DNA of 64,000 bases. It comes from Henricia sp. BOLD:AAB3569. Taxonomy: Eukaryota > Echinodermata > Asteroidea > Spinulosida > Echinasteridae. The notes under the pieces were generated by a model that had not been told where the DNA came from, made no database searches, and was given only the letters and a program-made list of their open reading frames with translations. This document shows positions 16,557 to 46,780 of this stretch, piece by piece (within the stretch, counting starts at the first letter, position 1; each line of letters starts with the position of its first letter). The position numbers and the translations under genes were made by a program. Location of the stretch: assembly GCA_037783545.1 (NCBI GenBank), contig JBBELK010000525.1, positions 2,666,001 through 2,730,000 of the forward strand. The letters are read 5' to 3'.

Positions 16557-16590
16557 TATAAAAAGTCGCTTCGAGACACATTCAGCCACA
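16557..16590 (+). promoter_or_regulatory. TATA box and initiator of the LDLa gene
   Basis: TATAAAA at 16557-16563 is followed 26-27 bp later by TTCAGCC (16581-16587), an initiator-like TCA core. The ATG is at 16617, so the 5' UTR would be about 35 nt. Spacing is as expected for a Pol II TATA/Inr promoter. Confidence 0.7.
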
Positions 16591-16616: not shown

Positions 16617-16665
16617 ATGGCAGTTCAGTACAAAGCGTTCCTTCTGTTGGCCATTGCGGCCGTAG
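16617..16665 (+). CDS. LDLa gene exon 1: start of signal peptide
   Basis: ATG at 16617 begins [16 protein letters not shown], a hydrophobic signal core; donor GTAAGT. The first ATG after the predicted transcription start, so the start choice is firm. Confidence 0.85.
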
Positions 16666-19600
16666 GTAAGTCGAAACAACTTTAAACCCCCAATACATCA
16701 TTTGCAGTTGCTTAAAATTTTACTTCACAAGTTGACGAGATAACTCTGACTAAAAGTGTTGATAGCAACGGTATAACAAACACCACATGATGGTATTTGT
16801 GGGAGAAATTTCCAACTGAAGGTGTTTTTTCTTTAAATTGTACACAATTTTTTTACTATTTATTCAACAACAAAAACTTGCATGGATTTTTCATGCTTTC
16901 TGAAGTATTACTGCATCTATGTGGCTGAAATTTCTACACGGCATGTTTATCGACGTTATTCTTTAGTTATGTAATGCTGTTGTTCCTGTTCTTAAATGTT
17001 TTCCAGTCACGTATTTAAATTTATCATGTTTTTCAGTGCTGTGCTTGGTGTTGGGAATCGAAGGCAGACGCCTCCCAAAAGGTAAGTGCTTGTACATTGA
17101 GTATTTTAATTAATCTATAAATGTATTTTCATTCATAATAATTTAGTAGTTTTGGTTTTTTAGGTTTGCAAATAATTTTCTTCGAGATTAAAGTGTTAAA
17201 CATTAATTGTTTCATTGTTTTTTAGCCGTGAAGAGAGGTGCGAAGGCAAAACGTCAAGGTAAGTATATTATTAAAATTTATATTTAATTAGAAAATGCCG
17301 CAATTTCCAATTTTTAATAGTCGCTAAAAGTGATATTTAGCCAATCTCAACCATGCGAAATTATCTATATGAATTATTGGCAATATTTTTTTTAACACTT
17401 AAAAAAAAATCCCATTACAAAAGAGAGTATTTTAAAATTGTTTGTTTTCACTTTTTCTTTTCAAAATACAGGAAAATTGAAATAGATTGTTTTTCACAGT
17501 AATCTGATTAACTTTTTGTTTAAAAGGCTATTTTAAAAGGCTATATCTATTCAAATTCATGGATGTTTCTTGTGACATTGCCTATACCGGTAGTGATGGG
17601 CTATTTTATTCACCTTTTATTTTAAATTAAATTTCTATGGTTGGAATTCACTTTGCATTCATTAGTTGTTGCAAGGTAGGACAAGCTTGTGGTCGTTAAA
17701 GGAGCTTGATTTTGTTTTAACCTAACAATCATATAAAATATCGCCCCAAAATCCACTAGAAGAAAACACGAAATTTGCAATATTCAATTTGGATGTGGAA
17801 GCAAAAAGGTTTTTGTATAGGCCTATAATATCTTTGCACTAGCTGCTTTATGGGACCAGATAAATTAGTTTACAAAACATCGGTGGTTTTTTTGACAATA
17901 TCCTTGAAAATATATGGATTGAGAGCGTGAAATTTCAGAATGGTGATGAGAAAAATATGACATGATTTGGTATTAAAATTTCGAAACCAACCCCCGTGGG
18001 AAAAAGGGGCTTAAAATGTGATGGACACGCTTTTTCAAGAGCAACATTTTGATAATAAAATATGCATGCAATTTGCATGCAATACAAAAATTACCTATTC
18101 CTTAATAAGAAGGTTTCTATTTATTTCTGTTTAGTGTCCAATGGCACCGATGTGCTTTTCCCATGTCAAGACGATTCCTTCCACTGTCTGAACCCCTACG
18201 GCCAGTGTCTGCCACCTGACTGGGTTTGCGATGCAATCCAAGATTGTTTCGAGGGAGAGGATGAGCAAAATTGCAGTAAGAAATTCACATCTGCCCCCCT
18301 CCCCCCATAAAACACATTTACCATTTTGACAATTGTTTTGCTTGGTCAGTTTCCCTTGCCTAAAGGGAAATTACAGTGCACCCAAGAAACAAAGGACTTT
18401 GTGCTGAACAAGTGTAAAGGAATTTTACTCGCTGAAAATCGGATATGAACCTCACAAAGAATGACGATTGCAGCAACATCGTGTAGTATGGACTCTGCCA
18501 TTTTGTCTGGAAACTGGGCAAAGAATGGGGTTTTTGTGGAGAATTCCTTTGTGTACTCCTGTAGCATGCAATACATGAAAAGGTTGTCCGCAAAAACGTC
18601 ATTCCTGACCCAATTTCTGCCATATGCAGCACGATATGTGGCAGAGGGTATCCCCGTACCATTGTTCCCCTTATTGTGTCTCAAACCCATGCTCAAACAT
18701 CCAAGGATTTCCTTTCAGTTTTTAGGGGGGTTATGGTGCGTTAACAAAAAGGAAGAGTGTGTTGAGGAATATGCCGGGGTGTTAGGGGCGATTCCCTTTG
18801 CCACATATCGTGCTGGTATAGTTTCCGCACAATTGGCGGTGCCCATAAGCCATTCTTTGTGAAGTTCGTATTGGATTTTCAGTGGGTCAAATTTCTTTTC
18901 CTTTGTATAAAAATAGTGTATGTGTTACACTTGTTTAGAACAATGTCTTTTATTTCTTGGGTATAATTCTTCTTTAGTATGTCATGTAATAATGCCAAAG
19001 ACTGATTACACGATTGTCATTGGCTATCACCCATACAGCGATGGTCAACTAGAAAGATTAAATAGAACTGTGGTGGGTGTAAACTGAATCCCCACACAAA
19101 ATAGATTGCAGGACTACTATTACAAACGGCGTTACATGTATATGTGTGATTTTAAAAACAAAACTGTGTATAACGTGAGAGCAGAAATGACGTATAGAGC
19201 CTTTGCACGGCGGCCATGACAGCGGGCAGTCACATTGTCACCGTGCGTCATGCATGAGTAGGTGCTTTGTGGTTCTATTGTTACATCATTTACATAACAA
19301 AACCTGCTCCCTGTCATGGCCACCGGTGCAGAAGCTCTATTAGTTAGTTGTACACCCTCATTTCCCTTTCAGATACTGAACCCTCGGATGCATGGGAAAC
19401 ATACCCGTGTCTCGAGGGAGCGTACCACTGCATAAATGCCTACGGGGTGTGTATGCCGCCGGGCTGGGAGTGTGATGGTGTGGAAGATTGCTACAATGGA
19501 CAAGACGAGCGTGAATGCAGTAAGTCACTGCATCCAGATTTCCCAAACTCATGGACATTTGCCCACATTTGTGTCGAATTATTTCACCCTGGCGGTCCCT

Positions 19601-22600
19601 GGGTCATTATCCGTAACAAAAATAGAAACATTTTATAAAAAAGAAACTCAAGGAATTTTTCAACAACGGTTTCAAATGCTAACATTTAAAGGTAGATTTG
19701 TCCATATCAAGCATTCACACGACTTTCCGTGCTGTGCTTGGTGTTGGAAATCGAAGGCAGACGCCTCCCAAAAGGAAGTGCTTGTTAATCTATAAAATGT
19801 ATTTTCATTCATAATAATTTAGTAGTTTTGGTTTTTTAGGTTTGCAAATAATTTTCTTTGAGATTTAAAGGCAGTATACATCATTGGTAATCTCTAAAAT
19901 TAGAAATGTTCACAGACTTACGCCTAATCTAACACAATATAAACATGATGACCGTAGAAAACTTCCCCTGAAATGGTTTTGTCTGAAGTGCTATATAGTC
20001 TTTGAGAAATGAGTAAAACAATTAGTTTTCGTCTCATGAGACGAAAATTCATTTCGCCCCAAAACCATTTCACCCCAAACCACTTCGCCCGAGTGCCATT
20101 TCGCCCCAAATTACTTCGTCCAAACACTACATCGCCCAAATGCCACTTCGCCCCAAAACCACTTCGTGCACAGGCCGTGGTTCAGGGCAAAATGGTTCAG
20201 GGCGAAGTGGTTTTGGGGCGAAATTACTGCAAACCCTTTTTTGACTGTTTTCTCGAAAGTTAGACGAAGTGCGCAGCTGGTTTTTGCTCAGGTTGGTTTT
20301 AATCATGCATATCTTCAATCACACAGGGGGATAAAACTATTTGTAACAGTTTACCAATCATGTATACTATCTTTAAGTGTTAAACATTGTTTCATTTGGT
20401 TTTACTTGTTTTTTTAGCCGTGAAGAGAGGTGCAAAGGCAAAACGTCAGGGTAAGTATATTAAAATTCATATTTAATTAGAAAATGCCACAATTTCCAAT
20501 TTTTAAGTCACTAAAAGTGATCTCAACCACACGAAATTATCTATATGAATTTTTGGCAATATTTTTTTAACACTTACAAAAAAAAGACCAATATAAAAGA
20601 GTATTTTAAATTTGTTTGTTTTCACTTTTTTTTTTTTTAACCGGAAAATTGAATTTTCTTTTTTCACAGTAATCTGCTTAACTTTTTGTTTAAAAGGCTA
20701 TTTTCGCAATCTATTCAAATTCATGGATGTTTCTTGTGACATTATTTGCCTATACCGGTAGTGATGGGCTATTTCATTCACCTTTTATTTTAAATTAAAT
20801 TTCTATGGTTGGAATTCACTTTGCATACATTAATTGTTGCAAGGTAGGACAAGCTTGTGGTCGTTAAAGGAGCTTGTTCAGATTTTTCAAAAAAATTGAT
20901 TTTGTTTTAACCTAACAATCATATAAAATATCGCCCCAAAATCCACTGGAAGAAAACACGAAATTTGCAATATTAAATTTGGATGTGGAAGCAAAAAGGT
21001 TTTTTGTATAGGCCTATAATCTTTGCACTAGCTGCTTTATGGGACCAGATAAACTAGTTTACAAAACATCGGTGGTTTTTTTGACAATATCCTTGAAAAT
21101 ATACGGATTGAGAGCGTGAAATTTCAGAATGGTGATGAGAAAAATATGACATGATTTGGTATTAAAATTTCAACTCGAACCCCCGTGGGAAAAAGGGGGC
21201 TTAAAATATGATGGACACGCTTTTTTAAGAGCAACATTTTGATATTGAGATATGCATGGAATTTGCATGCAATACAAAAATTACCTATTTCTTAATAAGA
21301 CGGTTTCCATTTATTTCTGTTTAGTGTCCAATGGCACCGATGTGCTTTTCCCATGTCACGACGATTCCTTCCACTGTCTGAACCCCTACGGCCAGTGTCT
21401 GCCACCTGACTGGGTTTGCGATGCAATCCAAGATTGTTTCGAGGGAGAGGATGAGCAAGATTGCAGTAAGAAATTCACATCTGCCCCCCTCCCCCCATAA
21501 AACACATTTACCATTTTGACAATTGTTTTGCTTGGTCAGTTTCCCTTGCCTAAAGGGGAATTACAGTGCACCCAAGAAACAAAAGACTTTGTGCTGAACA
21601 AGTGTAAAGGAATTTTACTCGCTGAAAATCGGATATGAACCTCACAAAGAATGACGATTGCAGCAACATCGTGTAGTATGGACTAGCTCTGCCATTTTGT
21701 CTGGAAACTGGGCAAAGAATGGGGTTTTCGTGGAGAATTCCTTTGTGTACTCCTGTAGCATGCAATACATGAAAAGGTTGTCCGCAAAAACGTCATTCCT
21801 GACCCAATTTCTGCCATATGCAGCACGATATGTGGCAGAGGGTATCCCCGTACCATTGTTCCCCTTATTGTGTCTCAAACCTATGCTCAAACATCCAAGG
21901 ATTTCCTTTCAGTTTTTAGGGGGGTTGGTGCGTTAACAAAAAGGAAGAGTGTGTTGAGGAATATGCCGGGGTGTTAGGGGCGATTCCCTTTGCCACATAT
22001 CGTGCTGGTATAGTTTCCGCACAATTGGCGGTGCCCATAAGCCATTCTTTGTGAAGTTCGTATTGGATTTTCAGTGGGTCAAATTTCTTGTCCTTTGTAT
22101 AAAAATAGTGTATATGTTACACTTGTTTAGAACAATGTCTTTTATTTCTTGGGTATAATTCTTCTTTACTATGTCATGTAATAATGCCAAAGACTGATTA
22201 CACGATTGTCATTGGCTTCTAAGCACCCATACAGCGATGGTCAACTAGAAAGATTAAATAGAACTGTGGTGGGTGTAAACTGAATCCCCACACAAAATAG
22301 ATTGCAGGACTACTATTACAAACGGCGTTACATGTATATGTGTGATTTTAAAAACAAAACTGTGTATAACGTGAGAGCAGAAATGACGTATAGAGCCTTT
22401 GCACGGCGGCCATGACAGCGGGCAGTCACATTGTCACCGTGCGTCATGCATGAGTAGGTGCTTTGTGGTTCTATTGTTACATCATTTACATAACAAAACC
22501 TGCTCCCTGTCATGGCCACCGTTGCAGAAGCTCTATTAGTTAGTTGTACACCCTCATTTCCCTTTCAGGTACTGAACCCTCGGAGGCATGGGAAACATAC

Positions 22601-25600
22601 CCGTGTCTCGAGGGAGCGTACCACTGCATAAATGCCTACGGGGTGTGTATGCCGCCGGGCTGGGAGTGTGATGGTGTGGAAGATTGCTACAATGGACAAG
22701 ACGAGCGTGAATGCGGTAAGTCGGTGCACGGAATCTTTACAACTTTGGCAAACCTAAACAATTATAAATATTTTATAGGCCCGGCGTCTAATGTTAAAAT
22801 TGATGCGCATGGCTGAAAATGACTAGAAAAACAAATTTTCCTTGCTAATTAGCTTAACTTCACACCCTTACTGAGGTACAGCAAGACCCCTGTTTAGCTT
22901 CAATTTTATTTTATTCTTTCCCTTGCAGGAGAAGGAAAAAGGAAAATTGCTCGCTCAATGAGTAAGTAATGCCACAACTGAGTAAATTTATTAAGTTCAC
23001 GTGATTGTCAATCCCATCAGTTAGGAGCAACTGCACTACCGTGATTCGAGACCACCAGTTGGCTTCATAGCTCAATTGGCAGAAGGTCCGCGGTTTGAAT
23101 CCCGGTGGAGCCAAGATGTTTTTCACTGCATCCAGATTTCCCAAACTCATGGACATTTGCCCACATTTGTGTCGAATTATTTCACCCCGTCGGTCCCTGG
23201 GTCATTATCCCTAACAAAAATCACTCATTCATAGTAAATTTATAAAGAAGAAACTCAAGGAATTTTTCAACAACGGTTTCAAATGGTAACATTTATAGGT
23301 AGATTTGTCCATATCAAGCATTCACACGACTCTTAAAATTTGAAAATGGGTTAATAGTCAAATCTTATGTGATGTGTATTACAATGCATAGTTCCGACCT
23401 GTCAATCAACCAAACCCGCCGACCAATCACAACAGAGCTAGCAGATGTCACCCACATAGGTCAAAGTGCACTGTACGCTCACAACAACATGATCACGCGA
23501 TATGTTCTGCCGGCCCTGTACAATTTGTAGTGTTGTATGCGACGGTCCGGGTGAATTTTTGGTTTCAAGGCCGGTCGTTTCGTTGTTCAAAGGTACGAAA
23601 GCTATATTTTGTGATGATATGATATCCCTGTATTACTGGCCCTTTACTCAGTGTGTTCTAAGATAACTGTTGACCCTGAAACATGAATACCTTTGAGTTT
23701 TCTTCAATGAATCTGTGCTTTCCGTTGAAAGTCCCATTGCTTTGTGCGTTGTGTGTCGCCATTTTTGACGATAGCGTGTGAGCCATGGCAACAATGTCCA
23801 CGGGGGGGGGGGGGGGGTTAACTGGGCAAAATCAGAACTATGCATTGACTAATGTTCTGCTAAGAACACAAGTTGACTTACAATTTTGACTATTGACCCA
23901 TTTTTATAATGTAAACAATTTGTGAATTAAGCAAAACAATTTCTGAAATTGCATGTCAACTTGTGTTTTTCACAAGAATATCTGCTGTTCTCGCTCAAGA
24001 CACAAGTTGACGTACATGCAATTTTTACTATTAACCCATTTTTATAAAGCAAACAAATTTTTGATTAAGCAAATTTGTTTGCTTAACAGCTTTATGAAAT
24101 TGGCTCCTGATCAGTTGCGCAACTAACGGCAACTGGGAACATCCAGTTTTCAGAGCGCGCACATCGACACGGCAACTCGGTAAAGCCTACAGTACATTGA
24201 CCTTTCAACTGTTTTTTGCAGTTGCTGTCGATGTGCGTGCACGTATTCAGACACATGCGTGCAACTTACAGCAACTAGTTTCAACTATTTGCAACTAACT
24301 ATTAATACACGTACATCGAAGCAACTGACCGCAACTGGGCTAGTTGCCAGAAAGTAGAACATAAGCAACTCGCGGCAACTCGATCCAGTTGCCAGTGGTT
24401 GCGAGTACGCGCACATCTACCTTTTTGTGCAACTGATCAGTCTGTTGCTCCCAGTTGCCGCGAGTTGCTTCCAGTTGCCGGAAACACCATGCAGTTGCCA
24501 CTAAGTCGATGTACGCTAGGCTTTAAATGTGAATATTCCGTGTTTGCAGTCTACGTTTTCATATTTACATATCTCAGAAAGAATGGGGCAGACAAATGTA
24601 CTAAAACGTAATTTTCACAAGTAACCATTTTTTTCTGTTTCGTTCATATTTTCCCAGCGAAACGAAAGCAGCTTTACGTTCGTGAGGGTAAGTATTGCTA
24701 AAACGTAAAGTGCATGTCAGGTTCAATTTTGACATATTTTTGCTGTACACCTCATTTCTAGTTTGTTCCTGATATGTTTGGTACATTGTATTGTGTATTG
24801 TATATTTGGCAGATGAATCGTTCAGTGCGTTTAATGTTTCTTGGGACTTGCTGGACCCATTAACGTGTCGCGAGGATTCCATCCACTGTGCTAATTACTA
24901 TGGGGGTGAATGTATCCCAGGCTACTGGCGATGTGACACTATTGAGGATTGTGAAGACGGACAAGACGAAGCAGAATGCGGTAAGAATTCTTTATCTTTT
25001 GAAAATTTAAGAGATCTCTTTTTTAAATTAATTACTCTAGGTTTTTGGCCAAATCCCCCCTCGCCAAAAAAAACAACAACAAAAAAGTGAGTGCACTTTT
25101 AAGCCCTGGTGAAAGCTTGACCCAGATTTTCCATGGCAAACGTATATTTCCTGGCAGGCCCTCACTGTTTGTGTACAAAACAATCTGTCAGGACTATCAG
25201 GCCCCTGAAAATGAATATCAACAAATTCCATTCACTCCAGGAGAGATTTATCTCTTTTTTTTACACCGTTTATCTCATTTTGCAGAAAGTCTGAGTTCAG
25301 CAAGCCCTAGCATAATCTATGACCGTGCGGGTAAGTAGATATGGTGTATTCACAGCACCTCATTTAAAACAAAAAGACCCTTTGAGTGGGTGGGACTTGA
25401 AGCCACTACTTTCTACATACTGAATGTTGGGTTCAAATAACTTATGGCATGCAACTGTAATTACACGAAATACATGTAAAGCAATTTTGTTCGTGCTTGT
25501 CAGTATACGGAAAACCTTTTTATGAAATAAATAATCAAATTTGTCCATACAGAGTAAAAATGTTCAGAGTAAAGCCTATAGCGTATCGACATTGCAACTG

Positions 25601-28600
25601 GAAGCAACTCAACTGGGGCCAATTTCATAAAGCTTTTTAGCCAAAAAATATTTGCTTAATCAAAAATTTATTTGGTTTATAAAAATGGGTTAATAGTCAA
25701 ATCTTATGTGATGTGTATTACAATTGACTGATGTTCTGCTATTCTTGCTAAGAACACAAGTTGACTTTCAATTTTGACTGTTGACCCATTTTTATAAAGC
25801 AAAACATTTTGAATTAAGCAAAACATTTTCTGCTAAACAGCTTTATGAAATTGGTCCCTGATCAGTTGCTGTCGACAGCAACTGGGGCCAATTTCATAAA
25901 GCTGTTTAGCAAACAAAATGTGCTTAATCAAAAAATGTTTCTCTTATAAAAATGGGTTAATGGTTGAAATTGCATGTCAACTTGTTTTTCACAAGAATAT
26001 CTGCTGTTCTTGCTAAAGACACAAGTTGACATGCAATTTTGACTATTAACTCATTTTTATAAAGCAAACAAATGTTTGATTAAGCAAATTTGTTTGCTTA
26101 ACAGCTTTATGAAATTGGCCCGTAACAGTTGCGCAACTAGCGGCAACTGGGAACATCCAGTTTTCAGATCGCGCACTTCGACACGGCAACTCGGTAAAGC
26201 CTACAGTACATTGACCTTTCAACTGTTGCTTGCAGTTGCTGTCGATGTGCGCGCACGTATTTAGACACATGTATGCAACTATTAAGCAACTACTTGCAAC
26301 AACTTGCAAAGTACTACACGTACATCGACGCAAATGACCGTAACTGGGCTAGTTGCCAGAAAGTAGAACATGAGCAACTCGCGGCATCTCCAGTTGCCAG
26401 TAGTTGCCAGTGGTTGCAAGTACACTTACATCTACCTTTTTGAGCAACTGATCAGTCGCTCCCAGTTGCCGAGAGTTGCTGCCAGTTGTCGGAAACACCA
26501 GTTGCCACTAGTTGCTTCCAGTTGCAATGTCGATGTACACTAGGCTTTAAATGTGAATATTCTGCGTTTGCAGTCTACGTTTTCATATTTACATATCTCA
26601 GAAAGAATGGGGCAGACAAATGTACTAAAACGTAATTTTCACAAAAATTTTTTTGTGTTTCGTTCATATTTTCCCAGCGAAACAAAAGCAGCTTCACGTT
26701 CGCGAGGGTAAGTATTGCTAAAACGTAAAGTGCATGTCGGGTTCAATTTTTACATATTTTTGCTGTACACCTCATTTCTAGTTTTTTCCTGATATGTTTG
26801 GTACATTGTATTGTGTATTGTATATTTGGCAGATGAATCGTTCAGTGCGTTTAATGTTTCTTGGGACTTGCTGGACCCATTAACGTGTCGCGAGGATTCC
26901 ATCCACTGTGCTAATTACTATGGCGGTGAATGTATCCCAGGCTACTGGCGATGTGACACTATTGAGGATTGTGAAGACGGACAAGACGAAGCAGAATGCG
27001 GTAAGAATTCTTTATCTTTTGAAAATTTAAGAGATCTCTTTTTAAAATTAATTACTCTAGGTTTTTGGCCAAATCCCCCCTCGCCAAAAAAAACAACAAC
27101 AAAAAAGTGAGTCCACTTTTATACCCTGGTGAAAGCTTGACCCAGATTTTTCCATGGCAAATGTATATTTCCTGGCAGGCCCTCACTGTTTGTGTACAAA
27201 ACAATCTGTCAGGACTATCAGGCCCCTGAAAATGAATATCAACAAATTCCATTCACTCCAGGAGAGATTTATCTCTTTTTTTTACACCGTTTATCTCATT
27301 TTGCAGAAAGTCTGAGTTCAGCAAGCCCTAGCATAATCTATGACCGTGCGGGTAAGTAGATATGGTGTATTCACAGCACCTCATTTAAAACAAAAAGACC
27401 CTTTGAGTGGGTGGGACTTGAAACCACTACTTTCTACATGCTGAATGTTGGGTTCAAATAACTTATGGCATGCAACTGTAATGCATAGTTCCGACCTGTC
27501 AATCAAGCCGAACCCGCCGACCAATCAGAACAGAGCTAGCAGACGGCGCCCACAAAGGTCAAAGTGATGCAATCATCACAAACAATCACGCGTTTTTCTG
27601 CCCATACAGTTTGTATGTTGTATGCGCCAGTGACCGGGTGAATTTTGGTTTCAATGTCGGGCGATTCGCTGTTCAAAGGTAGGAAAGCGCATTTTTATGA
27701 AATATATGTCATCCCTGCATTACTAGCCCTTCGCTCAGTGTGTGCGACGGTACCTGTCGACCCAAAAACATAAATACTTTTGAGTTTTCTCCAATGAATC
27801 TGTGCTTTCCATGCCGAGTCCCGTTGCTTTGTACGTTAATGTCGCCATTTTTTTGCGATGGCTTGTGAGCACATAGCAACAATATCTAAGGGGCGGGGTT
27901 AACTGGGCAATCTCAGAACTATGCATTACACGAAATACATGTAAAGCAAATTTTTTCGTGCTTGTCAGTATACAGAAAACCTTTTTATGAAATAAATAAT
28001 CACATTTGTCCATACAGAGTAAAAATGTTCAGAGTAAAGCCTATAGCGTATTGACATTGCAACTGGAAGCAACTCAACTAGGGCCAATTTCATGAAGCTG
28101 TTTAGCAAAAAAAAAAATTTGCTTAATCAAAAATTTATTTGGTTTATACAAATGGGTTAATAGTCAAATCTTATGTGATGTGTATTACAATTGACTGATG
28201 TTCTGCTATTCTTGCTAAGAACTCAAGTCGACTTGCAATTTTGACTATTGACCCATTTTTATAAAGCAACAAAATTTTGAATTACATGTAAGCAAAACAA
28301 TTTCTGCTAAACAGCTTTATGAAATTGGTCCCTGATCAGTTGCTGTCGATGTGTGCGTATGACAGCAACTGATCTTTGTGCAACTAGCGGCAACTGGGAA
28401 CATCCAGTTTTCAGAGCGCGCATATCGACACGGCAACTCGGTAAAGTCTACAGTACATTGACCTTTCAACTGTTGCTTGCAGTTGCTGTCGATGTGCAGC
28501 AACTAGTTGCAACTACTTGCAACTACATGCAACTACATGTACACGTATCGACGCAACTGACCGCAACTGGGCTAGTTGCCAGAAAGTAGAACATGAGCAT

Positions 28601-31600
28601 CTCGCGGCAACTCTAGTTGCCAGTGGTTGCAAGTACGTGCACATCTACCTTTTTGAGCAACTGATCAGTCGCTCCCAGTTGCCGCGAGTTGCTTTTAGTT
28701 GCCAGAAACACTAGTTGCCACTAGTTGCTTCCAGTTGCAATGTCGATGTACACTAGGCTTTAAATGTGAATATTCCGCGTTTGCAGTCTACGTTTTCATA
28801 TTTACATATCTCAGAAAGAATGGGGCAGACGAATGTACTAAAACGTAATTTTCACAACCATTTTCTTGTGTTTCGTTCATATTTTCCCAGCGAAACGAAA
28901 GCAGCTTCACGTTCGCAAGGGTAAGTATTGCTAAAACGTAAAGTGCATGTCAGGTTCAATTTTGACGTTTTTGCTGTACACCTCATTTCAAGTTTTTTCC
29001 TGATATGTTTGGTACATTGTATTGTGTACTGTATATTTGGCAGATGAATCGTACAGTGCGTTTAATGCTTCTTGGGACTTGGACCCATTAACGTGTCGCG
29101 AGGATTCCATCTACTGTGCTAATTACTATGGGGGTGAATGTATCACAGTGTTACTGGAACAGCATTGCATATCAGAAGAATGTTCATAAACTAGCTCATA
29201 AAACCTTCAGCCCCCATATATATAGTGGATTTTTAAGAACGAAAATATTGAAAATCCATGCATGGTTTTTGTATTTAAGTAAATGCACAAAAAAAAAAAA
29301 CTCAAAGTTATAACAATTTTGGACAGATAAAAATCATGCAGTGTTTGCCAAATCAACATTGTGTAATTTGTTTTTTTATATTTGGCAGAGGAACAATCCC
29401 TGAGTAATTATAGTCCGTCGTGGGTTCATTTCCAGTGTCAGAACGATTCTTTCAGATGCAACAGTGTTTACGGCGAATGTATACCAATAGCCTGGAAATG
29501 TGACTTTGTGAACGACTGCAAAAAAGGGGAAGATGAAGTAGACTGCGGTAAGAATTCCGGACGGTCCACTATGTAGGCGCCACCAAGAGTTTGACATTAG
29601 AAAGGCTATTTTTTTGCTGTGCATCATGGGAAAAGGTCGACGCGAACACTTCTACTTTATTCTAGATACGTGATTAGCTATATAGTTATTTAATCATTCT
29701 CGAGGAAAAGAGCAGATTGAATTTTTATCTTGGCAACATGGTTGTAATGATCGACTCGAGTCAACTCGAGTCCCGATTTTCACTGACTTGACTTGACTTA
29801 AGACTCGAACCTCAAATGACTTGAGAATCGAACCTCAAATGACTTGACTTGACTTGAGACTCGAACCACAAATGACTTGACTGAAGTCTGCCAAAATATA
29901 ATTTTTTTCATTTTGAGGACCAAAGCTTTGTTTTAACATACACTCGGCAAAAGAAGTTCTTGGACACTTGTAAAAGTTCAAATAATTTTTAAAAATAATT
30001 CATAAAAAGCACATTATTGTATATCAATATGACCACACAATAGTTCTCTACCTGCATGATATGGAGTTAACGCGTGAGCAATCATGCATGGCTGGTTACA
30101 CGCATTAAACAATAGCAAGTACAGTAACAGAAAATTGCAAGAAATGGAGCATTCAAATGCTAATAATCATGTCCATCCTGCAGGCCTAAATTTTGTTAAC
30201 AATTCCAGTGGAATAATGATGCATCCAAGATGGATAATTTCCTCTTCTTTTCAAAATGGCATTTAATTTTGACTTGACAATGTGCACGGGATTTGTTCAA
30301 TAATGAACCCCCAGCAAAGAAACATACTGCTTTTTTCTTTCAATGGATCATTATGCCACATAAACTGTTTCACAATTGAATAACTGAATGCTCCATTTCT
30401 TGCAATTTTCTGTTACTGTACTTGCTATTGTTTAATGCGTGTAACCAGCCATGCATGATTGCTCACGCGTTAACTCCATATCATGCTGGTAGAGAACTAT
30501 TGTGTGGTCATATTGATATACAATAATGTGCTTTTTATGAATTATTACTATATATATAGTAGTAATGTAGTAATATATCTGTGCACTTCCGCATTGAAAC
30601 CGAGGCTCTTCGTGTCAAGTCGGCAGTACGCCTGACTGTGCTACAAGTGCAGTATTGTACAGTGACTGAGTGTGTACATGTGCTGTTCTGCATGGCATTT
30701 AGGAGTGATTGCGCATTCACGTGCATACATTATTAGTTCACTTCAGTTGCTTAACATGAAGAGCCTCATTATCAAACCCGGAAGTGTGCAGACTGGTCTC
30801 AAATTGGTTAAATTGGGATTCGCTATAACAGTCTATGCAAGGCATTATCGTTTCTGGAATAACTAGATGGTGGACAGTAGTTTCATTCAGGGCGTCGCTC
30901 ACCCCGTCCATTGCACTTAATTCAGTGATGTGACCACTAGATAGGCCTAATGATACCATTCGAATAAACCTTATCAACGTTCTCAATACATCATGGGATT
31001 GGATGACAAATATTGCCAGCCAAGTGTGTGTAAACCTATGAGGCAGAGGCTAACTCAGCTACTTTTTGACTAATTTTCACGAAAACCAAAAAGAGTTCAA
31101 GAATCAACCTTTCAGCACTTTCTTTGAAACATATCAAACAATCGCAGTGCAGCACACCCGATCCAACCAGCGGCATGCCTGTACGAGACGCGGGTTGCAT
31201 TGCACATACCGATCGCGAGCGGGTTGCATTGCACATACCGAGCCGCGAGCACGGTATAGACTACTCGGACTCTCGCACTTACTATAAAAGGAATCCTCAA
31301 TAATTTCTCATATTTGCAACATTTCTCTTTTGGGACATGTTTGTCAGTATGTTTGATATGTAAAAATAATTGCTGAAAGGTTGATTCTAGAATTCTTTTT
31401 GGTTTTCGTGAATACATGCATGAGGGAAAGAGTTGGACTCCGTCTCATATATTTACGCACACTACTGGCAATATGTTTCATCCAATTCCATTTTGCATTT
31501 AGAATGTCGATATAACTTAAGGTTTATTAGAACAGTTGCTAACGTATAAACATTTACACCATAATCAGAATCTTCAGAACCTGTACTCGTTCCCCTGCCT

Positions 31601-33976
31601 TCTGTAGAGCAATACGACTGCAGCCTTCCGGGCGCCTTTCACTGCCTGAACCCCTATGGAGAATGTATGGATGGTACTTACGTCTGCAACAATTATGAAG
31701 ATTGCTATGACGGCCGAGATGAATTGAACTGTGGTACGTACGCTATTTTAAGTAAACTCCTCAAAAAAAGTTTGGGAACTCAACTTTGATTGACGATTTC
31801 TCTCTTGTTACCAAATTATTTTCCTTAAATTTGATATCATTGGAAAGCCCCGTTATTCTTCTTTACAATCGGGTCGATCCGAGTCGGCTCTGAAAAAACT
31901 TTGAAAAGGGGTCTGTTCGAACACCAGATACGCATTTTTAATAAACCGATAGCCACCTAAAATCCGATTTTCGTATCCGTCTCTAAAAATAGTTCTTTCC
32001 GGGTAAAATAATGCGGTGTTTCAGCTCTGTGGAAACACGCCGGTACAATAAACCGATACAATCGGTGTTCCAATGCACTGTGATGCATACACTGGGCCAA
32101 CTTTCCGAACTTTCGGTAGCGACCGAACGCTTGTGTAGAATCGGTTACAAACTAATATTCCACCCTCTGTAAAAAAAAAATGTGCCGTGTCAGCATTAGC
32201 CCGGTATTTTATTCCGGTTAGAAAATTCTGGGTTAGAAAATTCTGGGTTTAGTGGACTGGATTGTTCTGTAGAAAAACGCCGAATGATGTGTCATAATGT
32301 TATGATTAAGCAATTGGGGGATGTGTAGCACTGCGGAAAATGGAGGTGGATGTAAAGTGAAATGTTACAAAATGCATTGCTATTGTCAAAAAGTGCACTG
32401 ACACATACCCATCCTCCAAGCAAACGGAGAATGCACTGTATGACAATAGCGGTGCATTTTTTTATGTTTCACTTTACACCCACCCCCATATTCAGCTATG
32501 TTGCACATCCCCCAATTGCTTAATCATAGCAAATGACACATCATTGTGAAGAAGAATAACATGCCTTTCCAATGAGGCCAAATTCAAGGAAAATTATTTA
32601 GATACAAGAGAGAAATCGTCAGTCAAATTAACTTGAGCTTCCAAACTTTGTTGAAGTGTTTAATAAAAATAAAAAAAACCATTAATGATATTAGGGTTTC
32701 TTTTGTTTTGTCCTTACCTGACGTAATTAAGTAATGAAATTAAAGACCATTACATGTATATCATTTCACTTTGAGTTGACTTAAAAAACCTTACTCAAAG
32801 TATCGATAGCAACGAACAAAAACCATTCATGATAAATAGGGTTTGTTTTTTCCTTACCTGACGTAATTAAGAAAAAAACATGAACTGAAATTGAAGGCCA
32901 ATACATGTATATCAAGTTGACTATTAAAAACCTTACTCAAAGTATCAATAGCAACGGTAACTAACGTGATATGAGTTTATTTCTGTCCAAGGTTTTTGTA
33001 AGAAATTACAAACATTTTCAGTTCGACAGAGAGTAATATTTTTCAAGACCCCACTGCAGACCGCCCTTCCCTTCCCTAACTTTACTACATACAATATACC
33101 AACATTTTTTTGTCACTACCATGAAATGTCAACATTTTACAGAGCTTGTAAAGTCCTACACGACCTTTAAGACTGACCAAACCCACTTTTATTCCCATAT
33201 CACGCATCAGTTGAATAAAGCAGTCAAAATTAAAACTAGGAAAATCCGCCAGCATGTGTTGCGATATAACACTTCAAAATGTAAAACCTCGCTTTCAATT
33301 CATTTTACAGGTGATCAAAAAAAGCGTCGCCGCAGTCCATTTGGTAAGTCCTGGTATTTTAATAAGTTTTCCAATCTAATTATGGCACAAAACACTACAA
33401 AAGGGCCAGTAAATAAATCATGTCAAATTAGCAATGCTTATAGTTTATACTGAGCAGCAAAACAAATGCAAACATTTTCTCCAGGTTTTGATTTCTAAAA
33501 CCAGTCAATCTGAGAGCGGGAATTTTCAGCACACAAAAGCTTTGTGCAGTCATGCATTTAATGAACATTTCATGTGAACATTTTTATGTCAACTTAATTA
33601 CAAAAGACATTTTCAAATTTGGATTAAACGGAAAATTTGCATTTCTTTTGCTGCTCATGCAGTATAAAAAAGTTGCAAATATTCTACATTCATTTCTTAA
33701 TTAAAATTCCCAATTTGCACATGCAAATCGGTCACACAGAAATCGTTCACAAACATTATGCACAGAATTCGGTCCAAGACCGGAAAATGCACATTTTGAA
33801 AGGGCTGGAAATGGAAAACTTGTGGTATATTGTAATTTTATAGTGAATGAAATGTTGTGTCCAGCTTTCACATTCCAACTGAAAGGGCAGAATAGGAATA
33901 TGCTTTCATAAAATACCCTTTTAAAATACCTTGGTTTATGATTTGTTTATCATGGTCAGGCCGTTCCAAGAACTGA
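16617..33976 (+). CDS. Secreted multi-LDLa-module precursor with basic linkers (about 20 exons, 539 aa)
   Basis: Twenty exons, every one joined through phase-1 introns, sum to 1620 nt (540 codons with stop). Order: signal peptide; basic linker; LDLa1-LDLa2; basic linker; LDLa3-LDLa4; two basic linkers; LDLa5; Ser-rich spacer; linker; LDLa6; spacer; linker; LDLa8-LDLa9; [13 protein letters not shown] tail and TGA 33974-33976. A further module (LDLa7, 29044-29189) is frameshifted and left out. LDLa modules fold around Ca2+ with three disulfides and bind protein ligands. The linkers carry KR, KAKR, KRK and KKRRR sites, so proprotein-convertase cutting between modules is plausible (inference). 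No membrane segment, EGF or protease domain was seen, so it is secreted rather than an LDLR. I do not recognise a named homologue. TATA promoter at 16557 and AATAAA at 34029 bound the unit. Confidence 0.8.
17037..17081 (+). CDS. LDLa gene exon 2: end of signal peptide
   Basis: Acceptor CATGTTTTTCAG, donor GTAAGT. Encodes [15 protein letters not shown]; cleavage probably near GIEG. A decayed, unspliceable copy lies at 19729-19774. Confidence 0.8.
17226..17258 (+). CDS. LDLa gene exon 3: basic linker
   Basis: 33 nt encoding [13 protein letters not shown] and KAKR are potential dibasic/furin-type sites directly before LDLa1. Donor GTAAGT. A duplicate occurs at 20419-20451. Confidence 0.75.
18135..18275 (+). 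CDS. LDLa gene exon 4: LDLa module 1
   Basis: 47 codons with six cysteines: [26 protein letters not shown]. The Trp, the Asp after Cys4 and the acidic EDE keep the Ca2+-cage pattern of LDLa modules. Acceptor TTTCTGTTTAG, donor GTAAG. Confidence 0.9.
18432..18882. mobile_element. Foldback MITE with 28-bp TIRs, nested element inside
   Basis: CTGAAAATCGGATATGAACC at the left matches the complement of the right end near 18855-18882. Inside, 18627-18815 is bounded by CAGCACGATATGTGGCA and TGCCACATATCGTGCTG, a second MITE also present near 38785 and 39190. The duplicated intron carries both at 21622-22081. Confidence 0.7.
19025..19090 (+). pseudogene. Ty3/gypsy-type integrase remnant
   Basis: A short frame reads [17 protein letters not shown], matching the conserved C-terminal core of retroelement integrases (HPxxDGxxERxNRT). 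It stops soon after. The tandem copy is at 22219-22285 and a related fragment at 38506-38580. Confidence 0.6.
19373..19519 (+). CDS. LDLa gene exon 5: LDLa module 2
   Basis: 49 codons: [27 protein letters not shown]. Six cysteines and Ca2+-site acids are intact. Acceptor TTCCCTTTCAG, donor GTAAG. A deletion has fused the following intron to the tail of a SINE-like sequence, removing the linker exon present in copy 2 (22929-22961). Confidence 0.9.
19729..19774 (+). pseudogene. Fossil copy of LDLa gene exon 2 at duplication junction
   Basis: Nearly identical to exon 2 (CTGTGCTTGGTGTTGG...) but lacks an acceptor and has GGAAGTGC in place of the GGTAAGTGC donor. It marks the left edge of the second tandem unit. 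Confidence 0.85.
19867..20376. mobile_element. TTAA-flanked MITE with CGCCCCAAA repeats
   Basis: TTAA then AGGCAGTATACATCATTGG at the left pairs with CATGTATACTATCT then TTAA at the right. The interior carries repeats of ACTTCGCCCCAAA in both orientations. It is absent from the homologous site in copy 1 (near 17190-17200), so it inserted after the duplication. Confidence 0.8.
20419..20451 (+). CDS. LDLa gene exon 6: basic linker (copy 2)
   Basis: Encodes the same residues as exon 3, with silent changes; acceptor TTTTTTTAG, donor GTAAGT. Phase keeps the frame between LDLa2 and LDLa3. Confidence 0.75.
21325..21465 (+). CDS. LDLa gene exon 7: LDLa module 3
   Basis: Duplicate of module 1; residue differences are few (for example H for Q after the first Cys, DEQDC for DEQNC). 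All cysteines kept. Donor GTAAG. Confidence 0.9.
22569..22715 (+). CDS. LDLa gene exon 8: LDLa module 4
   Basis: Duplicate of module 2 with one or two substitutions (SEAW for SDAW). All cysteines and Ca2+-site acids kept. Confidence 0.9.
22929..22961 (+). CDS. LDLa gene exon 9: basic linker [11 protein letters not shown]
   Basis: 33 nt between TTTCCCTTGCAG and GTAAGT, phase 1-1, encoding a KRK-containing linker. Its counterpart after LDLa2 was deleted. Confidence 0.65.
   Translation, partial: EKEKGKLLAQ
23060..23215 (+). mobile_element. tRNA-derived SINE-like element
   Basis: GGCTTCATAGCTCAATTGGCAG holds an A box (TAGCTCAATTGG) and CGCGGTTTGAATCCCGG a B box; GGCTTC/GGAGCC could be the acceptor stem remnant. 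The following body (CACTGCATCCAGATT...) also occurs at 19526 and, diverged with the B box, at 41680-41760. Confidence 0.7.
23386..23843 (+). mobile_element. AATT-targeting MITE, copy 2
   Basis: GCATAGTTCCGACCTGTC to ATCAGAACTATGC, flanked by AT at 23384-85 and 23844-45. The homologous sequence at 25722-25725 shows the empty AATT site. Contains a run of 16 G at 23802-23817. Confidence 0.8.
24110..24525. repeat. GCAACT/AGTTGC foldback repeat (LDLa unit A)
   Basis: Dozens of GCAACT/AGTTGC words, ending GATGTACGCTAGGCTTTAAA. Truncated at its left end. It begins the roughly 2-kb unit carrying the linker, LDLa5 and spacer exons. Confidence 0.75.
24658..24687 (+). CDS. LDLa gene exon 10: basic linker [10 protein letters not shown]
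   Basis: 30 nt, acceptor ATATTTTCCCAG, donor GTAAGT. Duplicated at 26678 and 28891 with few changes; KRK (or KQK) lies before each following module. Confidence 0.7.
24813..24980 (+). CDS. LDLa gene exon 11: LDLa module 5
   Basis: 56 codons: acidic lead [16 protein letters not shown], then [28 protein letters not shown]. Canonical LDLa with DGxDE. Acceptor TATTTGGCAG, donor GTAAG. Confidence 0.9.
25286..25330 (+). CDS. LDLa gene exon 12: Ser-rich spacer
   Basis: 45 nt encoding [15 protein letters not shown], acceptor CATTTTGCAG, donor GTAAGT. No cysteine. Copy at 27307-27351. Confidence 0.7.
25574..26546. mobile_element. GCAACT foldback element with two nested MITEs
   Basis: Starts AAAGCCTATAGCGTATCGAC and ends GTCGATGTACACTAGGCTTT, so its termini are inverted repeats. 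Two elements with ends GGGGCCAATTTCATAAAGC and GCTTTATGAAATTGG (25616-25858 and 25884-26121) sit inside it. Another complete copy is at 28037-28759. Confidence 0.75.
26678..26707 (+). CDS. LDLa gene exon 13: basic linker [10 protein letters not shown]
   Basis: Copy of exon 10; the KRK site is changed to KQK. Splice sites intact. Confidence 0.7.
26833..27000 (+). CDS. LDLa gene exon 14: LDLa module 6
   Basis: Protein identical or nearly identical to module 5, differing at silent positions. Splice sites intact. Confidence 0.9.
27307..27351 (+). CDS. LDLa gene exon 15: Ser-rich spacer (copy 2)
   Basis: Same 15 residues as exon 12; splice sites intact. Confidence 0.7.
27483..27924 (+). mobile_element. 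AATT-targeting MITE, copy 3
   Basis: GCATAGTTCCGACC to TCAGAACTATGC, flanked by AT at 27481-82 and 27925-26. The paralogous intron at 25459-25462 has the empty AATT site in identical flanks, proving insertion after the 2-kb duplication. Confidence 0.85.
28037..28759. mobile_element. GCAACT foldback element (unit B/C boundary)
   Basis: Third copy within the LDLa gene, with one nested GGGCCAATTTCAT element at 28081-28332. Ends ACTAGGCTTTAAA. Confidence 0.75.
28891..28920 (+). CDS. LDLa gene exon 16: basic linker (copy 3)
   Basis: Encodes KRKQLHVRK; splice sites intact. If LDLa7 is skipped it joins in phase to the module at 29389. It may itself be skipped without frame effect. Confidence 0.55.
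29044..29189 (+). pseudogene. Broken LDLa module 7
   Basis: Copy of modules 5/6 ([22 protein letters not shown]) that loses similarity after GGECI and runs to TAA at 29187-29189 with no donor. Including it would end the protein early, so it is probably skipped or dead. Confidence 0.8.
29389..29547 (+). CDS. LDLa gene exon 17: LDLa module 8
   Basis: 53 codons: [27 protein letters not shown]. Diverged from the duplicated modules, so it is an older unit. Acceptor TATTTGGCAG, donor GTAAG. Confidence 0.9.
29748..29890. repeat. Minisatellite of GACTTGACTTGAGACTCGAAC
   Basis: Imperfect tandem copies of CTCGAACCTCAAATGACTTGA with GACTTGACTT runs. Confidence 0.7.
29994..30546. mobile_element. Inverted-repeat element, 162-bp arms
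   Basis: Arms 29994-30155 and 30385-30546 are equal in length and nearly perfect complements (ATTCATAAAAAGCACATT at the left end, mirrored at the right). The 229-bp centre has no recognised content. Confidence 0.8.
31066..31420. repeat. Imperfect inverted repeat
   Basis: TTTTCACGAAAACCAAAAAG with TTGATTC... at the left matches TTTTTGGTTTTCGTGAA at the right. The centre contains two copies of GGGTTGCATTGCACATACCG. Probably a foldback MITE. Confidence 0.6.
31608..31733 (+). CDS. LDLa gene exon 18: LDLa module 9
   Basis: 42 codons: [28 protein letters not shown]. The usual Trp is Tyr and the Asp after Cys4 is Asn, so Ca2+ binding may be weaker. Two further upstream in-phase acceptors (near 31569 and 31577) could lengthen the exon. 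Donor GTACGT. Confidence 0.85.
31758..32665. mobile_element. Foldback element, family shared with 62733-63190
   Basis: Left end CTCAAAAAAAGTTTGGGAAC and right end TTCCAAACTTTGTTG are inverted; GATTTCTCTCTTGTTAC and CAAGAGAGAAATCG pair inside them. The same ends and body words occur at 62733-63190. Confidence 0.75.
32690..32960 (+). repeat. Direct repeat of about 125 bp, intronic
   Basis: The phrase TTCCTTACCTGACGTAATTAAG with CATTACATGTATATCA, then TTAAAAACCTTACTCAAAGTATC, occurs near 32710 and again near 32850. Two tandem diverged units. No coding capacity. Confidence 0.6.
33311..33343 (+). CDS. LDLa gene exon 19: polybasic linker [11 protein letters not shown]
   Basis: 33 nt, acceptor CATTTTACAG, donor GTAAGT. 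KKRRRS is the strongest convertase-like site in the protein. With the next exon it reads SPFGRSKN, where GR could serve as an amidation signal (speculative). Confidence 0.7.
33960..33976 (+). CDS. LDLa gene exon 20: last codons and stop
   Basis: Acceptor CATGGTCAG, then GRSKN and TGA. Very short, phase-consistent; AATAAA follows 53 nt later. Confidence 0.55.
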
Positions 33977-34028: not shown

Positions 34029-34034
34029 AATAAA
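34029..34034 (+). terminator. Polyadenylation signal of the LDLa gene
   Basis: AATAAA, in position for the gene ending at 33976. Confidence 0.55.
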
Positions 34035-44400: not shown

Positions 44401-45413
44401 CTGCTTTACGTTTTAAGCAAAAGCCTGTCGATTTTTTTTGTGGAAAACAAGTTGTGATGGTGTTGTAGACTCATACACCTCCATGATAAGCAGAAAAACT
44501 TAAAAATGTGGACGGGGGGATTCTAGCTGTTTAAGTTTAACGTTGATAAACTGCCTTTCAGAGATTTCTGAAGACAATTTTTTTAAAACCACATAAATAG
44601 TCTGGCACTTTTCTATTAAGTAGTTTGCATTCAATAGAACTGATTCGGGAACAAGATTGAACTGTCCTTTCATGTGAATAAGATCCATGGTCCAAACCTT
44701 TCGAAGTGAAGTCAAAAAGTACCGGTTATAGATGAGTATTCAGATTATCAACATAAACTCACACGCAAAACTCACATCAGAATGGACAGTGCCTCCAAAA
44801 TTCATCTCCAAGAAGGGAACTCTCTGCATGGTGTGTGTTTTATTGATTATCTCCATGTCTCCATCATGAAGAACACACGACATTATCTCCTGCGTCCATG
44901 TTGTTCCTAGATAGAACCACATTAAAGGAGTTGGTTTTCCCAGAAAATGGATTTCGTTTTAACCGAACAATCATAGAAAATACTAGTAAAATACTGTAAA
45001 TGGAAAGTACACAGGAAATCTGCAATCTCCAATTTGGATGCGTGAAAGCAAAAATCTTGGTGTAACCACTGCGCACTGCTTTATGGAACCGGATAAATTA
45101 TTTAGTTTACAAAACATCCGTGACATCCTTATAAATATACAGATTGAGAACGCGAAATTTCAGAATGGTATGAGAAAAATATGACACAAGATCTCGACAC
45201 CCGTGGGAAAAAGGAGTTCAAGAATGTGATCTGGACACGCCCCTTTAATGCCTTACCAGCCTTGGGGTATGTTACGATGAACACGTCATCATCCCGTATT
45301 TCTAACGTCTTCAGGTCCTCCATGGTGCTCGGCAAGACGTCAAGATTAAGGGCCACGCCTTCGTAGTCATACACATCCAGTATCTTCAAATCTCCAGGCT
45401 TCAACTTTGACAT
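41192..45413 (-). CDS. Cytosolic sulfotransferase (SULT family), five exons, 293 aa
   Basis: Exons on the - strand: 45413-45257, 44906-44776, 43476-43239, 42287-42193, 41452-41192; together 882 nt in frame. The enzyme would transfer sulfate from PAPS to small alcohols or phenols in the cytosol. Motifs: TYPKAGTTWTQEIM (5'-phosphosulfate loop), KTHLPG (catalytic His), VYVIRNPKDVATSFFHH (3'-phosphate Arg/Ser), LLLRFEDMKK, DLRGTVMKISEFLGK, FMRKGKSG. The 95-nt exon equals the size of the matching vertebrate SULT exon. The expected RKGxxGDW is RKGKSGRK, lacking DW, and the C-terminal dimer motif KxxxTVxxxE is not evident. A GTAAAT donor at 41268 could lead to another last exon, but none was found and the read-through length is normal for SULTs. 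Confidence 0.85.
41680..41760 (+). mobile_element. tRNA-derived SINE-like fragment
   Basis: GGTCCGTAGTTCGAATCCCGG is a B box, followed by the same CACTGCATCTAGATTCCC body as at 23120. Confidence 0.6.
42193..42287 (-). CDS. SULT exon 4
   Basis: 95 nt, phase 1 start, phase 0 end: GYGKWWEHYLYFWERRNEKH then ILLLRFEDMKK. Acceptor TTTATTTCAG, donor GTCAGT. Confidence 0.9.
42478..42668. mobile_element. GGCCAATTTCATAAAGC-family MITE (diverged)
   Basis: GGCCTATTTCATAAAACTGT at the left and TTTATGAAGTTGGCTCC at the right, with CTTGTGTTCTATAGCAAGAG in the middle; same family as 25616, 25884 and 28081. Confidence 0.65.
42925..43106 (+). repeat. 182-bp repeat, left member of an inverted pair
   Basis: CCCCTTTCAAAATGTTGTAC to GCGGGAACCAGTCTA is matched by the reverse complement at 45641-45822, equal in length. 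Lies in SULT intron 3. A third partial copy is at about 48181-48212. Confidence 0.8.
43239..43476 (-). CDS. SULT exon 3
   Basis: 238 nt, phase 0 start, phase 1 end: FPRLIKTHLPGQLLPPQIW, IVYVIRNPKDVATSFFHH, WDEFFERFNSGN. It covers what are two exons in vertebrate SULTs, so an intron was lost or never gained here. Confidence 0.85.
44776..44906 (-). CDS. SULT exon 2
   Basis: 131 nt: GTTWTQEIMSCVLHDGD and RVPFLEMNFGG. Acceptor TTCTATCTAG, donor GTGAGT. Completes the P-loop started in exon 1. Confidence 0.85.
45257..45413 (-). CDS. SULT exon 1 (coding)
   Basis: ATG at 45413 begins MSKLKPGDLKIL; ends DDDVFIVTYPKAG, donor GTAAGG. A good acceptor (TTTTTTTTATCAG) lies just upstream, so a 5' UTR exon probably precedes it. 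Confidence 0.8.
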
Positions 45414-45640
45414 ATAACGACTGACTGATAAAAAAAAAAGTGAATCTCGCATATCGAGAATTTGAGTCGGTATAGAACTCGTGACACATGGACCATTTTT
45501 GGTGCAAATTTTTTTTCAAAAACAAGGCAGGCCAAATCATAGCAACTATTAAAGTCCTGATTGTTTCATAAACTTCAGGCAGCTATAGTGTACATTGAAG
45601 CCGCGCCCGTCCGCCATTTCGACACAGGCACAGCAAAGTT

Positions 45641-45822
45641 TAGACTGGTTCCCGCTCCACATATTCCACATACAGCGACTGAATATGAGGACCGGCTACT
45701 GTGGTGTTTAAAATAGCACTTTAAGCATTACGTCATGCATTTATTTTTAGAAGCACATAACCGTTAATTTTCAAAGCGCGCTGCGCGCTATATGGCATGA
45801 GTGTACAACAATTTGAAAGGGG
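45641..45822 (-). repeat. 182-bp repeat, right member of an inverted pair
   Basis: Reverse complement of 42925-43106; lies upstream of SULT exon 1. Confidence 0.8.
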
Positions 45823-45829
45823 TTATTAC

Positions 45830-46780
45830 ATATTTGACCAATACAAATTTAATATATTAACCTTAAAATATTAAATATGCCATTTTAATATACATGTAAG
45901 CTATAGCATCAAAACGAAAATTCAAACCTTGTCTGCATCACCCAGTGATCGAGCTCCATAATGTACTAGTACATTACTTTTAATCTGCTGTTGCAATCCC
46001 GTAACTATAGCGACTGACAGCCACTGCGTAGTTTTAAATCCGTGGCATCACCATAAATACACACGCAGCGGCACGCACGCACGTACGTACGTGCACGCGA
46101 CGTCAATTCAAATTCTCGAAACAATGACGAAGTGTACCCGACGATTAACGGTAACGTCCGGACGACCGGACGTGCATTCGGGTAACTTCGGGAACCTTCG
46201 GAAAAAGGAGGAATTCCTCCTGTTTCAAAATGGCGAAATTGGCGGCTGCCGGACCTTAAATTCAGTCTAGTCAAAAGATTTTTGGTCCGGGTACCAGACT
46301 AAGCAAAGTTTGATCTTGACAAGTCGCGGTCTAAAAGATCGCTGGTATTATACACACTTTAGCTTGATGCTCTCGTGAAAGTAATAACTGCAGCCTATAG
46401 GCAAAGCTAGCCTTTGGACAAGGCCTCGTAAATTTGGGCGATGTAGTGACTAGTTTTTCGAGCTGCGATGAATCATTGTGCATTAGCTCACTGATCTATT
46501 CACGTATTCGCCCGTACCCACCGCCTGTATAAGGGCGCTGGGACGGGCTAATCTTTTTGCGCCCTCATGGCCACAATTGTATACGACACGAGGTCGCGTC
46601 TCTTTGTTGTACTATAAACGGACGTAAAAACAAATATTTTTTTTCCAGCAGACAAGTCGGGTCTCGCAAAAAGTACACTAATTTTATTTGCAAATTTGAT
46701 TTTTGCACTGGATATATAAGCGTTAACGTACTATTTATTAATTTTTCGTCTGGCAGCAAGCAACCCACAATGCTCCGCGC
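45830..46780. other. Intergenic, no gene seen
   Basis: Includes an alternating GCACGCACGCACGTACGTACGT run at 46067-46095. The region may hold the SULT promoter, but no TATA box was placed with confidence. Confidence 0.35.

Follow-up and report, generated by a model that had tools for sequence, protein, structure and literature searches.

LDLa modules are known mainly from receptors and from large matrix or protease proteins. A gene, very probably from a starfish, in the 64,000-nt window studied here (the whole stretch of DNA that was analysed) appears to string eight of them together and to set short basic linkers between them, which raises the question of whether its product stays in one piece or is a precursor from which modules are released by proteolysis. 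The first-pass annotation of this DNA had proposed a polyprotein rather than a receptor. The answer developed below, which I regard as probable on balance, is that the gene encodes a LEKTI-like secreted polyprotein from which a dibasic-type convertase would release acidic pairs of LDLa modules.

The gene, represented by a splice model, occupies positions 16617–33976 of the forward strand, where 20 exons join into a single open frame of 1650 nt that closes with a TGA stop and encodes 549 amino acids. All internal exons are phase 1-1, and the donor sequence is GTAAG throughout, except at exon E, where it is GTACG. A TATA box (TATAAAAA, 16557–16564) lies 60 nt 5' of the ATG and an AATAAA polyadenylation signal (34029–34034) lies 53 nt 3' of the stop, both on the forward strand and recognized by consensus only; Rfam gave no match anywhere in the 64,000-nt window. 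The exon order is SP-linker 1-A1-B1-linker 2-A2-B2-linker 3-linker 4-C1-S1-linker 5-C2-S2-linker 6-dead C3-D-E-linker 7-end, and splicing in vivo would be expected to follow it. Exon SP1 (16617–16665) carries the ATG and the first half of the signal peptide, and SP2 (17037–17081) the remainder and the start of the propeptide. The LDLa modules, on which the splice model and Pfam agree, are A1 (18135–18275), B1 (19373–19519), A2 (21325–21465), B2 (22569–22715), C1 (24813–24980), C2 (26833–27000), D (29389–29547) and E (31578–31733). Seven exons of 30–33 nt encode the linkers: linker 1 (17226–17258), 2 (20418–20450), 3 (22929–22961), 4 (24658–24687), 5 (26678–26707), 6 (28891–28920) and 7 (33311–33343). 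Two further small exons of 45 nt, S1 (25286–25330) and S2 (27307–27351), are non-basic spacers of identical sequence, and the final exon (33960–33976) encodes GRSKN and the stop. A third C module (29044–29187) is dead: its acceptor is present, but it is truncated and runs into a stop. One frame over 20 exons, with internal exons in uniform phase, a leader, a short last exon and the AATAAA signal all speak for the proposed cleaved precursor.

The eight intact phase 1-1 LDLa exons of the first-pass annotation are thus all in place with the frame unbroken. The four basic exons of 30–33 nt that it quoted are likewise present, among seven. Its description of these exons as little but basic residues was overstated, K and R accounting for 3–5 of 9–10 whole codons. 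Linkers do stand between modules, as it said, but there is no strict alternation, the modules being mostly paired. It did not mention the two non-basic 45-nt exons or the dead third C, nor that linker 5 has lost its dibasic pair.

In the 549-aa protein, a Pfam hmmscan found eight LDLa (PF00057) stretches (E = 6.1e-61 for the whole protein), and LDLa was the sole domain above the curated cut-off, as expected of a chain of modules to be cut apart. Matches to PF00184 (neurohypophysial hormone) and to two DUFs scored under their cut-offs and were dismissed. The modules make up 299 of the 549 residues, and the precursor contains six N-glycosylation sequons. By eye, a hydrophobic leader at the N-terminus is followed by a short propeptide and linker 1, and no further hydrophobic stretch or membrane anchor was seen after the leader; such a precursor would be secreted.

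Two positions in the modules bear on what they might bind. The first is the calcium site, whose ligands in LDLa modules are the acids at CD, DC and DE. Four acidic calcium side chains and the tryptophan are retained in seven of the eight modules (A1, A2, B1, B2, C1, C2 and D), while the alignment of module E has N in place of one ligand D and Y in place of the tryptophan. The second belongs to the lysine clamp of LDL receptors, D-x-D-x-D, in which the middle position is acidic: in all eight modules this position is I, V or Y (from the alignments, C2 by reading). The modules also share a feature of their own. YG precedes Cys3 in all eight, with a Cys2-Cys3 gap of six or seven residues, and a cysteine-pattern scan of other loci of this genome (L001–L038 minus the window's own L009–L017), which detects only modules that fit the pattern, found this YG loop in none of 43 distinct LDLa modules. 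An AlphaFold2 prediction for module C, run with seven window modules, was poor (mean pLDDT 51) and was left out of the reasoning.

The LDL-receptor family (LDLR, VLDLR, LRP2) shares the LDLa module with this protein. When the joined modules were compared with PDB sequences, LRP2 came first and VLDLR next, both scoring high because they are many-module chains. Unlike in the ligand-binding modules of that family, the acid triad of the clamp is broken in 8 of 8 modules here; of the other LDL-receptor traits, EGF and the YWTD propeller had no Pfam match, and a membrane span was not seen by eye. Since no anchor was seen and the middle acid of the clamp is missing, an LDL-receptor-type function is disfavoured. 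The proposal 'a polyprotein rather than a receptor' is still a matter of inference. The products are more likely to be soluble effectors that would bind a partner through the hydrophobic calcium-loop position than lipoprotein-type receptors.

Basic residues lie largely between the modules. Outside the cysteine modules are 39 of the 50 K/R residues and 16 of the 17 dibasic positions, the exception being KK in D, a distribution that favours cleavage of the linkers. The motifs present are KR, KRK, KAKR and KKRRR. Against cleavage counts the absence of furin sites, there being no match to R-x-[KR]-R or to R-x-x-R in the 549-aa protein, so that of the KR and RxKR-like sites that the first-pass annotation names as cut by proprotein convertases, the KR type is present outside the modules but RxKR is not. 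Linker 5 has no dibasic pair, and it joins C1 and C2, two copies of the same module, as would suit a precursor cut between pairs. Because of this linker, two-module products fit the sites best; single modules, which had been proposed alongside them, fit less well, with C1-C2 unsplit.

On the preferred reading, the signal peptide would be removed from the secreted 549-aa precursor, and a dibasic-type proprotein convertase would cut at KAKR|Q, once behind the propeptide and once where the first A-B pair meets the second, at KR/KRK on either side of the C pair (B2/C1 and C2/D), and at KKRRR ahead of the C-terminal tail. With the KR-type sites cut and linker 5 uncut, four two-module products are predicted, A1-B1, A2-B2, C1-C2 and D-E, with a calculated pI of 4.05–4.21; they would probably be loaded with calcium and partly N-glycosylated. 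The masses calculated for the disulfide-bonded products, under the cut points and end trimming assumed and counting pyroglutamate but no glycans, are about 11,072 for A1-B1, 11,112 for A2-B2, 17,962 for C1-C2 and 13,022 for D-E. Three of the possible N-termini, QVSN, QLYV and QLHV, begin with Gln, which could be capped as pyroglutamate. Convertase cleavage after KRK is less usual, and the QLYV and QLHV starts would need it. Cleavage and products alike are predicted from the encoded protein.

Short open stretches flanked by splice-like signals arise by chance, and the linker exons were compared with that background. The strict scan called at least 10 pyrimidines in 15, AG, 27–48 nt open in phase 1, then GTAAG[TA], with thresholds fixed only after the exons had been seen. 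Within the gene it returned 11 rows, corresponding to 10 distinct exons (SP2, the seven linkers and the two spacers) with linker 3 counted twice; when the gene span was dinucleotide-shuffled 200 times, the mean was 0.26 and the maximum 3. Demanding a dibasic pair as well left 8 rows from 7 exons, where the shuffles averaged 0.035 and reached 2 at most. The whole window gave 14 rows on the forward strand, 11 of them in the gene, and 2 on the minus strand; the 5 rows outside the gene on both strands included no dibasic pair. Applied to 44 other LDLa loci of the genome, which total 137,667 bases with overlaps and haplotype pairs left in, the same scan found a single candidate, which was not dibasic. 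Under looser thresholds the gene gave 12 rows; outside it the forward strand also gave 12, with no dibasic pair among them, and the minus strand 14, of which 2 were dibasic. The linker micro-exons are therefore more than chance, far above shuffles and with no dibasic counterpart at the control loci, which speaks for the cleaved precursor, although because of duplications they represent only four independent linker types.

Those duplications account for the repetition of the modules, which to judge from the copies arose in tandem. A 3.2 kb unit is duplicated (17188–19532 versus 20372–22728, 94% identity), and SP2 was carried along (17031–17192 versus 19724–19868, 86%). The copied SP2 (19730–19774, forward strand, close to the duplication junction) has no acceptor, and its donor is one base short (GTAAGT to GAAGT). 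A piece of about 400 nt containing linker 3 follows B2 and is absent after B1 (19525–19724 versus 23123–23331); by eye, a tRNA-like stretch lies beside linker 3 within this piece (23060–23118). The cassette of linker, C module and spacer occurs a second time at 93% identity, and a further copy, which is damaged, matches at 83%. Introns of the duplicate units diverge by 3–9%. Among the module cores, identities are 54% for D-A, 51% for D-C, 54% for E-B and 48–51% for E-A, making D closest to A, and E closest to B and then A, a weak hint that an older A-B pair was the ancestor of D-E.

The copies allow exon and intron divergence to be compared. A exons differ at 2 of 141 sites against 82 of 964 in introns (p 0.001) and C exons at 1 of 168 against 33 of 733 (p 0.012). 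The constraint supports purifying selection on A and C and speaks for the cleaved precursor. Counting against this reading, B exons diverge no less than their intron (3 of 147 versus 30 of 1136, p 1.0), and nor do the linkers: pairs 1/2 and 4/5, pooled into a small sample, differ at 5 of 63 sites versus 115 of 1697 in introns (p 0.61). By this comparison no purifying selection was detected on B or on the linkers. Linkers 1 and 2 differ by two changes, both synonymous. Linkers 4–6 show the replacements Y/H, R/Q and E/K, which weigh against the cleaved precursor, and the Q in linker 5 is what abolishes the dibasic pair.

These comparisons give some footing to the strongest alternative, which I nevertheless consider doubtful: that linkers 1 and 7 are ordinary propeptide and C-terminal sites and trimming is confined to the ends. 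The internal linkers would then be left over from tandem duplication and for the most part stay uncut, and a single secreted protein of eight modules would result. Linker 2 is a copy of the propeptide exon brought in by the 3.2 kb duplication, and the lack of constraint between linker copies, with replacements among linkers 4–6 and a dibasic pair gone from one, is what such by-products would show. But linkers 3, 4 and 6 are internal and basic, and they are not copied from the end linkers. Moreover, the two exons copied together fared differently: neither splice site of the signal exon survived in its copy, yet linker 2 retains both and has changed only synonymously. That nothing matches linker 3 in the sister copy of its unit tells in turn against the cleaved precursor.

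It is unlikely, in my estimation, that the basic linkers stay uncut and fold onto the acidic LDLa modules, in the way that ligands with lysine bind LDL receptors, serving charge balance, storage or the assembly of a secreted scaffold. The cut-out pairs have a calculated charge of about −15 to −27, which linkers of this kind could offset, and surfaces bearing lysine or arginine are described as typical ligands of LDLa modules (PMC8286064). The modules of this protein, though, have I, V or Y at the clamp position that such a ligand would engage, as set out above for all eight.

A markedly less probable alternative is that splicing passes over the linker exons, or that these are cryptic, and that the mRNA joins the LDLa exons directly. 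With phase 1-1 any internal exon can drop out without loss of frame, and single-exon skipping is reported for LDLa modules and leucine-rich repeats in ambulacrarian RNA-seq (PMC8286064); against it stand the ten micro-exons, including all seven linkers, that have a pyrimidine tract and a GTAAG donor, where shuffles average 0.26.

One further alternative depends on the place of the locus in the genome. In searches of its own assembly (740.7 Mb, 2104 contigs, best candidates scored), the joined module set hit nine places in the window first, at 57–98% identity, namely the eight LDLa exons and the dead C copy. Outside the window the best of the scored candidates reached E = 3.9e-7, with identity of at most 56%. 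Searches with module E or module D alone led to a similar result among the best candidates scored, D reaching 59% over about 35 residues and a best E-value of 9.0e-6 outside the window. Many other LDLa loci of the genome occur as contig pairs. Here, the unique parts of the leader region, the 3' end and the downstream sequence matched only their own contig among 40 candidates scored for each, so that no second haplotype appeared; the remaining matches of these three queries were interspersed repeats. Least probable of all, and hardly credible, is that the gene is decaying or is an artefact of two alleles assembled in tandem, for although one copy each of the C module and of exon SP2 is dead and no second haplotype was among the scored matches, eight modules and the full frame are intact, the units differ by the ~400-nt piece and by 3–9% in introns, and the A and C exons are less divergent than the introns.

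How does a cleaved LDLa precursor compare with known systems? Progranulin and prosaposin are precursors from which repeated cysteine modules are freed by proteolysis; they have other folds, and their linkers are not known to be of the dibasic-convertase type. LEKTI/SPINK5, in which linkers between many small domains are cut in a furin-driven cascade to give multiple products (PMC10218509), resembles the starfish protein in how its chain of domains would operate. It differs in its Kazal fold and its role as a protease inhibitor; the starfish precursor consists of LDLa modules, has no furin consensus and shows no Kazal domain above cut-off. Secreted LDLa proteins are described from remipede venom; their modules number one, four, five or six and are followed by a C-terminal S1 peptidase domain (PMC5577568). 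Such arthropod venom proteins are secreted as well, but here LDLa stands alone, in an echinoderm, with dibasic linkers. The echinoderm LDLa GPCRs (gonadulin, dilp7-type and GRL101 receptors, with one LDLa recently duplicated in Patiria and Acanthaster; PMC8286064) are membrane receptors, whereas Pfam finds no leucine-rich or seven-helix part in this protein. In the crown-of-thorns starfish, an LDLa domain is described in some DMBT1-like proteins (PMC10448888), whose layout is unlike that of the LDLa precursor.

No dibasic-linked LDLa precursor was among the matches listed, which were mostly open-access literature on LDLa precursors and echinoderm LDLa. The layout is known from other module folds (LEKTI), and for LDLa no description was found among those matches. 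The first-pass statement that no standard family has this layout agrees with the LDLa matches listed, but passes over these analogues in other folds. If the preferred reading is true, LDLa joins the folds that are delivered as cut polyproteins, with pairs freed as proteins; the duplications would show a cassette gene caught growing, its signal-exon copy silenced and its linker copy retained; and concrete starfish products with calculated masses can be sought. It is a tentative possibility that the gene represents a starfish family of dibasic-released LDLa pairs, soluble hormone-like or defence effectors that grew by cassette duplication and share a private YG loop.

The surroundings of the gene are rich in repeats. 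The first intron contains an interspersed repeat (16681–17014), about 40 scored matches of which, drawn from 4548 first-look candidates, are mostly 77–88% identical; another lies in the last intron (33444–33657; 39 scored matches elsewhere, 82–90%). Downstream, a high-copy element extends over 45641–46300 and perhaps further. It is probably young, since its scored copies are mostly 91–98% identical. A long minisatellite (52994–55320) has periods of 78, 156 and 240, and by eye its unit carries tRNA-like letters on the minus strand; it is possibly an array grown from a piece of a tRNA-derived SINE. The minus strand also has a weak reverse transcriptase match (2000–2335; PF00078, E = 0.0057, under the cut-off) and an open stretch (45129–45515, DDDVFIVTYPKAG) that by eye resembles a sulfotransferase exon, for which Pfam gave no such match. 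The mitochondrial COX1 of this assembly contains 11 in-frame TGA codons when read with the standard code. Of four codes compared, tables 5, 9 and 13 keep one and the same stretch of 518 codons open, and table 9 (AAA = Asn, ATA = Ile) brings back conserved residues such as STNHKDIG; AAA = Asn is described as a change specific to echinoderms (PMC2697986). Upstream of COX1, tRNAs for Leu, Gly, Tyr, Leu and Asn were found on the minus strand and one for Gln on the plus strand, in agreement with the inversion of sea stars. The DNA is accordingly that of an echinoderm, very probably a starfish. Elsewhere in the assembly, contig C955 contains three COX1 matches (L039–L041) spaced 16,221 bases apart, and the mitochondrial genome looks to have been assembled there as a tandem chain.
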